In this document: positions 20,036 through 40,533 of the stretch, piece by piece
How the letters are laid out: every line of letters begins with the position of its first letter
Numbering within the stretch: position 1 is the first letter of the stretch
The notes under the pieces: generated by a model
Databases searched by the model: none
What the model was told of the DNA's origin: nothing
What the model saw: the letters and a program-made list of their open reading frames with translations, nothing else
Assembly: GCF_025141175.1 (NCBI RefSeq)
Contig: NZ_CP081155.1
Coordinates: forward strand, 2,323,001 to 2,387,000
DNA length: 64,000 nucleotides
Direction of reading: 5' to 3'
Source of the DNA: Jannaschia sp. M317
GTDB lineage: Bacteria; Pseudomonadota; Alphaproteobacteria; Rhodobacterales; Rhodobacteraceae
Program-made: the position numbers and the translations under genes

Positions 20036-22129
20036 ATGGACCCACCCGTCGCGTCTCCGACGTCGTGGTCGCGCCTGCGCGGGGCCATCGTGCTGGCCTG
20101 TCACGGTCTGCGCGGGCGCAGGCTGCTTTGGGGGGCGACCTGTTTCGGCACGGGCGTTGGTGGGTATTTCGCCTTGCCCGTGGAACCAAGCGCACCGCAG
20201 ATCGGCGCGGTCGGGGTTTGCGTGGTCTTGCTGGTCCTGCTCGGATGGTGGCTCCGGCAGGGGGTGGGCCTCCTTGCCCTGTTTGCCGCCGCGCTGATGG
20301 CGGGGCTGTTGGTTGCCGCGCTGCGAACGCAGGTCGTGGCGGGGCCGGTTCTCGAATTCCGATACTATGGCGCGGTCGAGGGGCGGGTGGTTAAACTTGA
20401 CCGTTCTGCATCTGGCGCGCCGCGCATCACCCTGGATCAGGTTCGCCTGGATGGCTTTGCCCCTGACCGCACCCCGCGACGGGTTCGCCTTTCAATGCAC
20501 GGCCCGGGTCCGGTCGCGCCAAAACCGGGCGCACGCATGATGACGACCGCGCATCTGTCAGGTCCAAACGGACCGGCAGAACCGGGGGGCTTCGATTTTC
20601 AGCGCCACGCCTGGTTCCAGAAACTGGGGGCCATCGGATACAGCCGCCTGCCGTTGTTGCAATCGGGTCCGGCTGACGGCGGTTTGGCTCTGATCATAGA
20701 CCGCATGCGCGCAGGCATCGGCGCCGGTCTGCGCGAAAGCCTGCCCGGCCAGCGCGGAGAGATCGCAGCCGCCATCACGACAGGCGACCGATCCGGCCTG
20801 TCGGCCGAAGTGGTAGAGGCCCTTCGCGTGTCGAATCTGGCGCACTTGCTGGCGATTTCCGGGCTGCATATGGGGCTGTTGGTCGGCTTCGTCTTTTGGG
20901 CCACGCGCGGCGGACTGGCGCTTTGGCCCGCCGTTGCCCTGCGTCACCCGACACGGGCCTGGGCGGCGGCGGTGGCCTTGCCCTTTGCGCTGTTCTACCT
21001 GTTCCTGTCGGGCGGCAGCGTCGCGACGCAGCGCGCCTTTGTGATGGCTGTGGTCATGCTGGGCGCGATCCTGTTGGGGCGCAAGGCACTGTCGCTCCGC
21101 TCCGTCGCCATCGCGGCGTTGATCGTGCTGCTTTGGCGCCCCGAAAGCATCACGGGCCCCGGATTTCAGATGTCATTCGCCGCAACCGGGGCTCTGGTGA
21201 TTGCCTTCCGCGCGCTGACCCGCCTGCGTCAGAACGATGCCTGGGCCCCGTGGTTCAAGGGATGGCGCGGGGCGATCCTGTCGTTGCTGGTGTCGTCTAT
21301 CGTGGCGGGCGCGGCGACGGCGCCTTTTGCGGCGTTGCATTTCAATCGGGTGGGACAGTTGGGTGTTCTGGCGAACCTCCTGGCGGTGCCAGCGATGGGC
21401 ACTCTTGTCATGCCGCTCCTGTTGATCGGACTGATACTTTGGCCCTTGGGCTTGGAAGCGGGACCGTTTTGGTTGGCCGGTCAGGGCATCGCCTGGATCG
21501 TCTGGGTGGCAGAATGGATCGCAAGTTTGCCGGGGGCGGTCAGCCATGTTCCCGCGCCACAGGTTGTGGTCTTGCCGCTGCTTGGGCTTTCGATGGCTCT
21601 GTTCGGGGCGGCCCGGACCGTTGGGCGGGGGATTGGCCTTGCGCTGTTCGGGCTGGCGCTCGGCCTGTGGGCAACCTCGCCCAGACCCGCGCTGCTTATC
21701 TCTTCGGACGGACGGCTCGTCGGGACCATGACCCTGCAGGGCCGTCACCTCAGCCGCGACACCGGCGCGGGTTTCGTTGCCTCTGTCTGGCTCGAGAACG
21801 ATGGAGATGGGGAGACCCAGGCAGAGGCCGCCACGCGCGCGCCACCCCTGAAAGGCTTGCCCGACATCTGGGCGCTCCGCGGGAAAACAGGTCTCCAGAC
21901 GGCCTTGGAGGAATGCGCGGAACGCGGCGGCTGGTTGGTCACACCCGTACGCGTCGACGCTGCCGTGCCGGGGTGCCGCATCTTCGAAGAACGCACCCTG
22001 CGGAATACAGGAGCCATCGCGCTATACGGGTCAGAAAACGACGGGTATGCCCCGCCGTGGCGTATGGTTACCGCGCGCGAGACCCAAGGGCGACGCCCCT
22101 GGGTCCCAGGCCAACCGTCACCTCAATAG
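20036..22129 (+). CDS. comEC: ComEC/Rec2 family DNA-uptake channel protein
   Basis: Inner-membrane protein that carries transforming single-stranded DNA into the cytoplasm. 697 residues from ATG 20036; an AGGAGG at 20015-20020 rules out the TTG further upstream and fits ATG 20036 or GTG 20033. Membrane spans near the start ([20 protein letters not shown]) are followed by the DUF4131-type domain and then the Competence domain with [20 protein letters not shown] and many helices. The C-terminal 130 residues lack a full metallo-lactamase domain, as in short alphaproteobacterial ComEC. Its stop overlaps convergent lexA by 7 bp. Confidence 0.92.
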
Positions 22130-22818
22130 CTGCGGATCAACCCGACGAGCCGTCCCTGCACGCGGACCCGGTCTTCGGGGAGCATGCGGGTTTCGTAGGC
22201 CGGATTGGCCGCCTCCAGCGCAATCATCCCCTTGGATCTGCGGAAGCGTTTCAACGTGGCCTCGTTGTCATCTACCAGAGCCACGACAATATCGCCGCTG
22301 TCCGCCGTATCCTGTTCGCGGATCACGACCACATCGCCGTCATTGATCCCGGCATCGATCATCGAATCGCCCCGGACCTCCAACGCGTAATGGTCACCGC
22401 CCCGATCAAGCATCTGGCCGGGAACCGCCACATGGCTGGCCACTTCGCTAATCGCCTCGATCGGAACACCTGCGGCGATCCGGCCCATGACAGCCAGCTC
22501 GACCGCGTCGATCTTGACTGCGCGCGCGCCTCCCGGCGCTTTCGGCGTGTCGTCCCGCGACCCGTCCACGACACGCGGCACAAAGCTGGCCCCCTGCATC
22601 ATGTCCTCTGGCAAGCGGGTAATTTCGATCGCGCGGGCCCGATGGGCCAGCCGTCGAATAAATCCTCGTTCCTCAAGTGCGGTGATCAGGCGGTGGATTC
22701 CGGATTTGGACCGCAGGTCCAGCGCATCCTTCATCTCGTCAAAACTCGGCGGCACCCCATCGCGCTGCACGCGCTTGTGGATAAAGGCCAATAGGTCGCG
22801 TTGCTTGCGCGTCAGCAT
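22123..22818 (-). CDS. lexA: LexA SOS repressor
   Basis: Repressor of the DNA-damage response; self-cleaves with RecA*. 231 residues. N-terminal winged helix ([16 protein letters not shown] ... [18 protein letters not shown]) and C-terminal S24 peptidase. The cleavage pair is A116-G117 in RIAAGVPIE; catalytic S152 is in [15 protein letters not shown] and K190 in NEATLKRF. A consensus SOS box lies 36 bp upstream, so it is autoregulated. Its 3' end overlaps comEC by 7 bp on the other strand. It follows moeA in the same direction but has its own promoter. Confidence 0.97.
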
Positions 22819-22853: not shown

Positions 22854-22868
22854 GTTCTAGTTAGGTTC
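22854..22868. promoter_or_regulatory. SOS box (LexA operator) of lexA
   Basis: Direct repeat GTTC-TAGTTAG-GTTC, exactly the alphaproteobacterial SOS box GTTC-N7-GTTC, positioned upstream of the lexA start. Confidence 0.9.
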
Positions 22869-34638: not shown

Positions 34639-39044
<4,406 letters not shown>

Positions 39045-39045
39045 A

Positions 39046-39066
39046 AGAACAAAACCCTTTTTGTTC
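39046..39066 (+). terminator. Hairpin after recG
   Basis: GAACAAAA and TTTTGTTC form an 8-bp inverted repeat with a short CCCT-type loop just after the recG stop, with T residues in the right arm. It may end the ligA-recG transcript. Its right arm contributes an extra GTTC (39063-39066) next to the SOS box. Confidence 0.5.
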
Positions 39067-39072
39067 CCCTAT

Positions 39073-39087
39073 GTTCTCATAAAGTTC
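39073..39087 (+). promoter_or_regulatory. SOS box upstream of a small membrane-protein gene
   Basis: GTTC-TCATAAA-GTTC, an exact match to the alphaproteobacterial LexA operator GTTC-N7-GTTC, the same form as at lexA in this window. It lies 29 bp after recG and 64 bp before the start of the 41-residue ORF at 39152. A further GTTC lies at 39063-39066 with a 6-bp spacing. Confidence 0.8.
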
Positions 39088-39151
39088 TTTACAGGCCGTT
39101 TCCAGTATGAGAACAAAGGTGCAACAAGAGCAGCAAGAAGAGGTATCTGAA

Positions 39152-39277
39152 ATGGCCCGCAAGATCCGCAAGACCATCCGCCGCGTAGAGCGGGAGCCTT
39201 TGACAGATATTCTTGGCGGCGTTTGGCTGGTCACCTTGATGCTCAGCCTGCTGCACCTTCCTGCTTTGATCGCCTGA
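39152..39277 (+). CDS. Small single-span membrane protein, predicted LexA-controlled
   Basis: 41 residues: a basic cytoplasmic N-terminus (MARKIRKTIRRVEREPL) and one membrane helix (ILGGVWLVTLMLSLLHLPAL). GAAGAGG lies 8 bases before this ATG; an in-frame ATG at 39107 would give 56 residues but has no ribosome site. The exact SOS box 64 bp upstream predicts induction by DNA damage. Size, topology and control resemble SidA of Caulobacter, a 29-residue SOS-induced division inhibitor, although I see no sequence similarity to it. Function is therefore unproven; division inhibition is the leading hypothesis. Confidence 0.7.
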   Translation: MARKIRKTIRRVEREPLTDILGGVWLVTLMLSLLHLPALIA

Positions 39278-39289
39278 TCGCGATCCCAG

Positions 39290-39475
39290 TCGTTTCTGCC
39301 CGCGTCCCGTTCGCCTGTCTTGCTCCGGTCTCCCCTTACCGGTTCAGGACGCGCCGCCCGGATTGCCCCCCGAGCTGCGCCGCCCAAGGTTTCTGACACC
39401 TTCGGCCACTGCCCGAGCGTACGGAAGACGCACCTTACCCGCCGCCTCCCTCACCGGAGTGCGGCGGTTTTTTTT
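39290..39475 (+). ncRNA. Candidate small RNA with CU-rich hairpin loops
   Basis: The 364-bp gap 39278-39641 contains no convincing ORF. It has a hairpin CCGGT-CTCCCCTT-ACCGG (39325-39342), a second one AAGGT-TTCTGAC-ACCTT, and a terminator whose loop carries CTCCCTCACC. CU-rich loops able to pair with Shine-Dalgarno sequences are typical of a class of alphaproteobacterial small RNAs. No clear promoter was found, so it could also be the 3' UTR of the SOS-linked gene. The rest of the gap (39476-39641) shows nothing I can name. Confidence 0.35.
39439..39475 (+). terminator. Rho-independent terminator
   Basis: CCGCCGC (39439-39445) pairs with GCGGCGG (39461-39467), followed by eight T residues. 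Plus-strand orientation. It ends transcription from the SOS-linked small gene or from a separate small RNA. Confidence 0.85.
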
Positions 39476-39641
39476 GAGGCAAATGCCTGTATCTCAACGC
39501 ATCGAGAGGGTGTGTCACAGGCGTTCATGAGCGGTAATTGGCACCTAACAGCCATTCCAAGCCCGCCATCGCGGGGGGCACCCGTCAATACCCCCGAAGA
39601 GGCCGCAAATCAAAGAGATGTCAGCGCAGAAAGCCGCGCCT

Positions 39642-40094
39642 CTAGGGCGCGCACCGCGTCTGGTCGCCTGCTTGATCCAGCGCCTCGACCGTCGCATCCA
39701 AGGCAAGCAGGATCGACGCATGCCGATTGCGGAAATCCCGCGCAGGGGTCAGCACCTCCAACCCGTCGAAGGGGCTGTCCGGCACCGGACCCCCGCCGAG
39801 CATCGCGCGCAACTGGTCGCGCCCGCGCCGCACATCCCCAGCGGTCAGCCCCAGCATGACACGCCCGCTCACCGAGGCAGAGGCCTGCCCCAGGGCGCAG
39901 GCCTTCACATCCTGAGCATAGCGCGCGATCCGCCCATCCTCGACATCCAGCGACACCGTCACCGTCGATCCGCACAATGGCGATCGTTTGCGCACGCTGG
40001 CATGCGGCGCCGCGATCGGATCGGTGGCGGGCATGTCGGCGGCAAGTTCCAGAATACGGCCCGAGTAGAGCTTGATCAGGTCGGCATCGGGCAT
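39642..40094 (-). CDS. Iron-sulfur scaffold-like protein (SufU/IscU fold)
   Basis: 150 residues from the ATG at 40094 (MPDADLIKLYSGRILELA). The SufU/NifU-N fold is indicated by SPLCGSTVTVSLDVEDGRIARYAQDVKACALGQASASV. Two of the three usual ligand cysteines are present (C in PLCGS, C in KACALG); the usual CGD is CGS, and the third Cys is not in its normal place, with only a Cys near the extreme C-terminus (TRCAP). This suggests an altered cluster-handling or delivery role. It is divergent from hisI. Confidence 0.8.
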   Translation of the reverse strand: MPDADLIKLYSGRILELAADMPATDPIAAPHASVRKRSPLCGSTVTVSLDVEDGRIARYAQDVKACALGQASASVSGRVMLGLTAGDVRRGRDQLRAMLGGGPVPDSPFDGLEVLTPARDFRNRHASILLALDATVEALDQAGDQTRCAP

Positions 40095-40161
40095 CGGCTT
40101 CCTTTCACGGTCTGCCCGGCTTAGGTAGCCCCTCGACCCCGCGATGCAAAGGTACCTGGCC

Positions 40162-40533
40162 ATGACTTTCGACCCCGCAACGCTCCGCTACGATGATCGG
40201 GGGCTGATTCCCTGCATTGCCCAGGACGCCGACAGCGGCGAGGTGCTGATGATGGCCTGGATGAATGCCGACGCGGTGACCCGGACGCTCGACACCGGAC
40301 GCGTCACGTATTGGTCCCGGTCGCGGCAGGCATTCTGGGTGAAGGGGGAATCGTCGGGCCATGTTCAGGCGCTGGTGGACCTGCGCGTGGACTGTGACCG
40401 GGATTGCCTGCTGGCCGTGGTCAATCAGACCGGCCCGGCCTGCCACACCAATCGACGCGTCTGTTTCTATACCTCTGTCCGCGATGGCACCGAGGTAGAG
40501 CTGATGGACCCTGAAACATCGGCGGAAAGCTGA
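40162..40533 (+). CDS. hisI: Phosphoribosyl-AMP cyclohydrolase
   Basis: Third step of histidine synthesis. 123 residues from ATG 40162 (MTFDPATLRYDD). Seen: GEVLMMAWMN, TYWSRSRQAFWVKGESSGH and the zinc-binding cysteines in DCDRDCLLAVV and ACHTNRRVCFY. It is a stand-alone HisI, not fused to HisE. It lies just upstream of the edd promoter and is probably transcribed separately from it. Confidence 0.95.
   Translation: MTFDPATLRYDDRGLIPCIAQDADSGEVLMMAWMNADAVTRTLDTGRVTYWSRSRQAFWVKGESSGHVQALVDLRVDCDRDCLLAVVNQTGPACHTNRRVCFYTSVRDGTEVELMDPETSAES

Follow-up and report, generated by a model that had tools for sequence, protein, structure and literature searches.

A LexA-type operator, a small predicted membrane protein and a conserved structured 3′ RNA downstream of recG in Rhodobacteraceae form a candidate two-output damage-response gene

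Small genes with several architectures offer a comparison for the locus described here. SidA of Caulobacter crescentus is very small in size, TisB of Escherichia coli is an SOS-linked membrane toxin with an antisense RNA, and the CcsR RNAs of Rhodobacter are C-rich-loop RNAs behind a small-protein gene that is controlled by a sigma factor rather than by LexA. DinQ of E. coli is described as having an antisense RNA. SidA is presented as an SOS-induced inner-membrane protein of an alphaproteobacterium, and DinR of Klebsiella pneumoniae as a regulatory RNA at the 3′ end of the LexA-controlled dinI mRNA; DinR is described as specific to Klebsiella, depends on Hfq and acts as a repressor of ftsZ (PMC10907235). 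According to this precedent an SOS mRNA can carry a small RNA (sRNA) directed against ftsZ. Here we describe a locus just behind recG in Jannaschia sp. M317 (Rhodobacteraceae; contig NZ_CP081155.1, positions 2,323,001 to 2,387,000 of the forward strand; this whole stretch of 64,000 nucleotides (nt) is referred to as the window). It consists of an SOS-type operator, an open reading frame (ORF) of 41 codons and a folded RNA that ends in a terminator. On balance we lean towards reading it as a LexA-repressed damage-response gene with two outputs, a peptide that would restrain division and a 3′ regulatory RNA, both functions being hypothetical.

The locus shares with SidA a small SOS-type, predicted inner-membrane protein in an alphaproteobacterium. 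It differs by its position beside recG, by the conserved structured RNA after the ORF, and by a protein profile that stayed at noise level in 140 genomes of the class from outside the family, SidA itself lying outside this comparison. LexA control, which is predicted here, a small-protein mRNA and an RNA at its 3′ end are common to dinI-DinR and this locus, whereas the ORF is another one, the multi-hairpin fold is conserved across a family and the target is a candidate only. TisB and DinQ are likewise short, single-helix, SOS-linked peptides, but they have antisense RNAs, and none was detected here by a weak promoter scan. CcsR offers, within the same bacterial family, a small ORF followed by C-rich-loop RNAs; type of control, loop motif and ORF are different.

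The operator GTTCTCATAAAGTTC precedes the small ORF (Table 1). An original prediction confined to 39073..39277 had recognised it as an exact SOS box, which is correct, and as having the same form as the box at lexA. The form is indeed equal, but the lexA box GTTCTAGTTAGGTTC is oppositely oriented relative to lexA. In the same genome GAACAGGACGTGAAC is found upstream of recA. Since lexA, recA and this box form occur together in one genome, we infer LexA control of the small gene. For comparison, 113 loci were chosen by protein similarity (20 same-genus and 93 other-genus loci; part of all protein matches, weak matches included). L021, L024 and L030 were left out as spurious in our judgement, L022, L023, L026 and L027 because their genomes duplicate those of L083, L065, L078 and L061, and so was L028, a true recG-linked locus of the family that lacks the exact box. 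An exact box is present upstream of the ORF in 112 of the 113 loci, and in 111 recG ends at a distance of 81 to 305 nt upstream of the protein match. The box-anchored alignment of these 112 loci keeps TTTAC, the upstream GTTC, CAACA and TGAGAACAAA 20 nt past the box end; the divergent locus L314 carries TTGACA in place of TTTACA at the predicted −35 element.

The short pattern GTTC-N7-GTTC shows only moderate enrichment genome-wide (114 sites, with 71 when the pattern is reversed). Extended to GTTC-N7-GTTCTTTAC, the motif was detected 104 times in 101 of 149 family genomes, compared to 8 times for the reversed control, and is single-copy in 98 of the 101 motif-bearing genomes; location at the small-ORF locus was checked for part of the 104 sites. 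Operator form and promoter core are evident at the sequence level. Transcription probably starts near 39123. A 56-residue frame opening at the upstream ATG 39107 was considered and rejected: in some relatives it holds an in-frame stop (L008) or runs out of frame. Because the frame breaks while the DNA motif is kept, the stretch from 39107 would be promoter or leader. The predicted LexA sites of Dinoroseobacter shibae name other genes in the accessible part of the source (PMC6473078). No paper was recognised as describing the small-gene locus in a literature search, which did not cover supplementary tables.

The ribosome site and the ORF MARKIRKTIRRVEREPLTDILGGVWLVTLMLSLLHLPALIA, with a basic N-terminus and one predicted membrane helix, were found where the original prediction had placed them, and the basic end and the predicted helix are conserved across the family. 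Among 14 same-genus genes the nonsynonymous rate (pN) was 0.224 and the synonymous rate (pS) 0.556, with pN<pS in 91/91 pairs, compared to 47/91 and 0/91 pairs in shifted-frame controls. To judge from this substitution pattern, which is not of the non-coding type, the ORF is under purifying (coding) selection. Residues D19, L26 and P37 are invariant across the 25 members of the protein profile. Because the first 15 residues include seven K/R and only two D/E, the sequence suggests an N-in, C-out topology. The best 19-residue Kyte-Doolittle mean is 1.97 for the window protein, and means of ≥1.6 were obtained for 110 of 111 locus proteins of ≥30 residues. AlphaFold modelled a helix from 2 to 34 and a short helix from 36 to 40 (mean predicted local distance difference test score 75). 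These models point to a small single-pass protein that would insert into the inner membrane. The 25 members had no family match in Pfam or NCBIfam (best E 0.41 and 0.088, respectively), the window protein alone had none in PHROGs, and a PDB sequence search gave no match at E≤1.

The ORF is followed by a 3′ untranslated region (UTR) of about 190 nt. Its predicted fold is that of a multi-hairpin RNA in which a closing stem encloses inner hairpins and a terminator follows; the loops are rich in C. As no internal terminator is visible, ORF and 3′ RNA presumably share a single mRNA, with a predicted length of roughly 350 nt between its two predicted ends. The window 3′ UTR folds with −83.1 kcal/mol (z −4.47), and 0/200 shuffles were as stable. 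A terminator rule delimited the UTR in 98 of the 113 loci. For 95 of these 98 UTRs the 3′ arm of the closing stem was swapped between loci, in a test that, unlike the covariation alignment described below, is not fitted to a model. Self pairs reached −23.4 and non-self pairs −17.5 kcal/mol, and 0/20,000 permutations were as good. The difference held for the 20 same-genus UTRs (−20.8 vs. −16.3 kcal/mol; 0/20,000) and for the 75 other-genus UTRs (−24.2 vs. −18.1 kcal/mol; 0/20,000). When each 3′ arm was shuffled, the median z was −2.3, with 61/95 loci below −2, and 10.5% of shuffles paired equally well. Phylogenetic relatedness is not corrected for in the shuffle and permutation tests.

Since aligning all UTRs together with MAFFT left too many gaps for RNAalifold, the analysis relied on sub-groups and on a covariance model. 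This model, R1, was built from 7 sequences and matched 100/100 loci given at E≤0.01; matches of ≥120 nt were obtained for 72/80 other-genus loci. At E≤1e-5 the RNA model matched 79/83 loci. In the resulting 79-locus alignment, which is fitted to the model, 91.6% of paired cells can pair vs. 71.9% in shuffles, and double changes occur in 36/40 pairs (521 cells vs. 145 ± 9 expected; partner slides ≤138). Searched against whole genomes, R1 gave one match each in 14/20 same-genus and 12/16 other family genomes and 0 matches in 24 genomes outside the family; among the 26 matches, that of G031 is on a different contig from the small-gene locus. In G034, the genome of L028, an RNA model match is located directly downstream of this locus. 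The words CTGTCC and CTGCCT each occur in 70/78 other-genus UTRs, with 5.9 and 6.8 expected, and in the genus of the window CTGCCC and CGTCCC are each present in 16/20 UTRs. No match near a gathering score was obtained in Rfam for window positions 38900-40200 and 18 loci. Relaxed thresholds yielded 3 matches at chance level in the window, among them a ylbH leader match antisense to the 3′ UTR (17.1 bits vs. gathering 50, E 0.72), and the 18 loci gave only Ysr141, below threshold and elsewhere in the loci. The hairpin at 39439-39475 was not listed by a simple terminator scanner; its stem has a bulged T. As far as folding and alignment can tell, a conserved folded RNA, closed by an intrinsic terminator, forms the 3′ end of a predicted mRNA with a LexA-type operator. 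The support for the regulatory-RNA part is structural.

The locus is widespread in the family. A single-sequence protein search found the protein in 20/20 same-genus genomes, and the 25-member profile matched 340/394 family genomes (339/393 genera) at E≤0.1. An order-level sample gave matches in 117/121 genomes, all 121 of the same family, and therefore no wider reach. In a class-level sample of 142 genomes the 2 family members had strong matches; among the other 140, all outside the family, profile matches appeared in 10, all noise (best E 0.019). R1 matched 6 of 23 genomes that had no protein match (20 of the 54 profile misses and 3 from the order-level sample). Three of these six, the profile misses L309, L310 and L314, hold a recG-linked locus with exact box, diverged ORF and RNA, which is weak in L314. 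Because they keep the box but have a diverged ORF, evolution seems to be faster in the ORF than in its promoter, and because they were missed by the profile the count of 340/394 is probably too low. The matches in L311, L312 and L313 lie in unrelated places. The weakest profile matches, with E close to 0.1, may represent noise, and the gene may truly be absent from some family genomes.

A promoter-only scan of GTDB species genomes returned at least 118 stretches, 7/118 of which end <400 nt downstream of the site. Among the 118 matches listed, the protein was found at E≤1e-3 in 113, the recG end ≤300 nt upstream in 114 and the RNA, by model match with E≤0.01, in 102. The 80 stretches that bear a title contained the ORF in 76 (79 at E≤0.1), recG in 78 and the RNA in 70, three of these RNA matches being <100 nt; the corresponding numbers for the other 38 were 37, 36 and 32. 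The 80 titled stretches come from genera that we take to be Rhodobacteraceae or Roseobacteraceae, or are labelled only Rhodobacteraceae, Rhodobacterales or alphaproteobacteria. By these sequence comparisons the SOS-type small gene is present in most sampled Rhodobacteraceae, in the usual case directly behind recG.

The profile matches in 340/394 family genomes, together with the coding selection, would also fit a gene in which the peptide alone matters, a SidA-like SOS division inhibitor whose 3′ structure just protects or terminates a short mRNA. Small SOS proteins alter division elsewhere, as described for SidA, YneA and SosA (PMC10907235). A plain protective hairpin, however, could do without several conserved C-rich motifs (CTGTCC, CTGCCT) in a closed multi-branch fold, and we regard this explanation as rather unlikely. 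In combining a structured mRNA with a small membrane peptide linked to SOS, the locus also resembles the type I toxins tisB and dinQ. Here the peptide would depolarise the membrane so that damaged cells become dormant, its translation being limited by the structure of the mRNA or by an antisense RNA. Against this, the gene is syntenic and near universal in the family, unlike typical toxin modules, and the weak scan found no antisense promoter. Moreover, with D, GG and LHLP conserved, the peptide would seem to have a specific partner. A toxin of this type is the least probable of the explanations considered here.

For the 3′ RNA, ftsZ was chosen beforehand as the sole target, and 18/20 genomes gave an ftsZ start (L293 and L299 were dropped by rule). 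The ftsZ ribosome site ACAGGCGGACAG shows CAGG[CT]GG in 18/18 genomes, compared to 17/749 background gene starts, and GGACAG in 13/18 genomes vs. 8/749. Both halves of the site are complementary to the frequent RNA words GCCUGU and CUGUCC. In pairing with CUGCCUG, the median of 12 non-genus ftsZ sites is equalled by 0.5% of background starts and that of the same-genus ftsZ sites by 13%. With CUGUCCC 4.7% of the background is as good for same-genus and non-genus sites alike, and with the combined motif ACUGCCUGUCCC this value is 7% (15% for 6 same-genus sites). By pairing energy ftsZ ranked 8, 3, 6, 14, 1, 9, 7, 6, 10, 4, 1, 3, 2, 10, 9, 8, 13 and 4 among 12 to 20 genes per genome, in a control with poor gene calls (wrong-frame ORFs); the motif-pairing background used codon-position-based calls.

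These pairings, with DinR of Klebsiella as precedent (PMC10907235), favour a view of the RNA as the main product, a LexA-induced, 3′-UTR-derived sRNA that represses mRNAs such as ftsZ, the peptide being secondary. They are opposed by the background for ACUGCCUGUCCC and, in the same genus, for CUGCCUG, by the ftsZ of the window genome itself, which has GGACAA instead of GGACAG, by an energy ranking that does not single out ftsZ, and by the clear coding selection on the ORF. We consider this view unlikely. Equally doubtful to us is a family-wide bifunctional SOS RNA in which a divisome-binding peptide is combined with CUGUCC/GCCUGU loops that cover the ftsZ site; if this were true, constriction and FtsZ synthesis would stop together after damage. 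The evidence on ftsZ is mixed and makes it an open lead only. L291 and 17 other ftsZ loci share the unusual conserved ribosome site ACAGG[C/T]GGACAG. In some genomes further genes of the ftsZ region, which we take to be murG and murC from their N-termini, also have similar ACAGGCGG sites in front of them. The shared sites may point to a common post-transcriptional control.

The preferred reading, a LexA-repressed gene for a peptide and a 3′ RNA, would work as follows. LexA on the GTTC repeats beside the −35 element would keep the gene off, until RecA, on damaged DNA, causes LexA to be cleaved and the transcript is made. Its 5′ half would be translated into an inner-membrane peptide of about 40 residues with the basic end inside and a short C-terminus outside, which would most likely hold back division via contact with a divisome membrane protein, as SidA does. 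The 3′ half would persist as a stable multi-hairpin RNA, most likely a 3′-UTR-derived regulator acting at ribosome sites of mRNAs, in the manner of DinR acting on mRNAs.

Several observations weigh against the two-output reading. In the window GTTC-N7-GTTC occurs at 2 sites with 1.87 expected, and ≥2 sites were present in 59/100 shuffles. One of the 113 loci, L155, has no exact box, and L028 has GTTC-N6-GTTC only, then a T-rich stretch and TTGACG; with L028 added the exact box is found in 112/114 loci. The predicted −10 element ends in a base other than T, and a consensus promoter scan found no promoter on either strand, missing the expected SOS promoter too. R1 matches of ≥120 nt were obtained in only 5/20 same-genus loci, the other 15 matches being limited largely to the 3′ end, and R1 was not found in 6/20 same-genus whole genomes; the genus of the window thus has different inner hairpins. 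Stability or termination of the transcript might be all that the structured 3′ end serves. Finally, the energy rank of ftsZ has a median of 6.5 of about 16 genes per genome, and no target stands out.

Table 1 Features of the small-gene locus and of related genes in the window
Feature	Position	Strand	Remarks
Additional GTTC half-site	39063..39066	+	N6 before box; starts 10 nt ahead of box in 98/112 aligned loci
SOS-type operator GTTCTCATAAAGTTC	39073..39087	+	putative LexA-binding site; exact GTTC-N7-GTTC in 112/113 loci
Predicted −35 element TTTACA	39088..39093	+	abuts box; TTTAC 86-99% per position (112 loci); putative promoter role
Predicted extended −10 region (TGA-GAACAA)	39111..39116	+	GAACA 23 nt past box in 94/112 loci; putative promoter role
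Shine-Dalgarno GAGG	39140..39143	+	from sequence
41-residue ORF MARKIRKTIRRVEREPLTDILGGVWLVTLMLSLLHLPALIA, ATG at 39152	39152..39277	+	basic N-terminus, one predicted membrane helix, D-x-x-G-G core, LHLP end
Structured 3′ RNA including terminator	39292..39474	+	covariance model R1 match, 29.9 bits
RNA closing stem, 39302-39314 with 39417-39431	39302..39431	+	fold and arm-swap tests
RNA inner hairpins inside closing stem	39317-39350, 39351-39380, 39382-39406	+	
Terminator hairpin CCGCCGCCTCC/GGAG-T-GCGGCGG and T run	39439..39475	+	G+C-rich; about 160 nt past ORF stop
recG	36960..39044	+	Pfam DEAD, Helicase_C, RecG_dom3_C; putative GTG start
lexA	22123..22818	−	PF01726 and PF00717
SOS-type box GTTCTAGTTAGGTTC upstream of lexA	22854..22868	+	

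The linkage to ligA and recG, which the original prediction had noted, was borne out by Pfam matches for both genes upstream of the small ORF, and the adjacency to recG is kept across the family. That prediction was right about the SOS-type operator, the coding ORF, the predicted helix and recG, and the conservation of box and ORF in relatives agrees with it. It overlooked the structured 3′ RNA, the extra GTTC and the promoter core, and its range contains box and ORF while the feature runs on to about 39475. Between recG and the box, an inverted repeat GAACAAAA-CCCT-TTTTGTTC is located at 39047-39066, with a similar form in several same-genus loci (e.g. GGAACAAATGCAGTTTGTTC in L014 and L015); it may be a further operator or the recG terminator. 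Past the terminator lies a minus-strand ORF (39642-40163) without a Pfam match at 1e-5, whose product presumably resembles an iron-sulfur cluster scaffold protein. A sequence resembling this ORF follows the RNA in several relatives' loci.

To our knowledge, how Rhodobacteraceae hold division during DNA damage has not been worked out. For this family, including the Roseobacter group, Rhodobacter and Paracoccus, the locus offers a near-universal candidate for a damage checkpoint. Peptide and 3′ RNA are both candidates for such a role, and neither matched the family databases searched. If our proposal is true, they would represent a new small-protein family and a new RNA family, and besides DinR there would be another SOS mRNA with a regulatory 3′ end.
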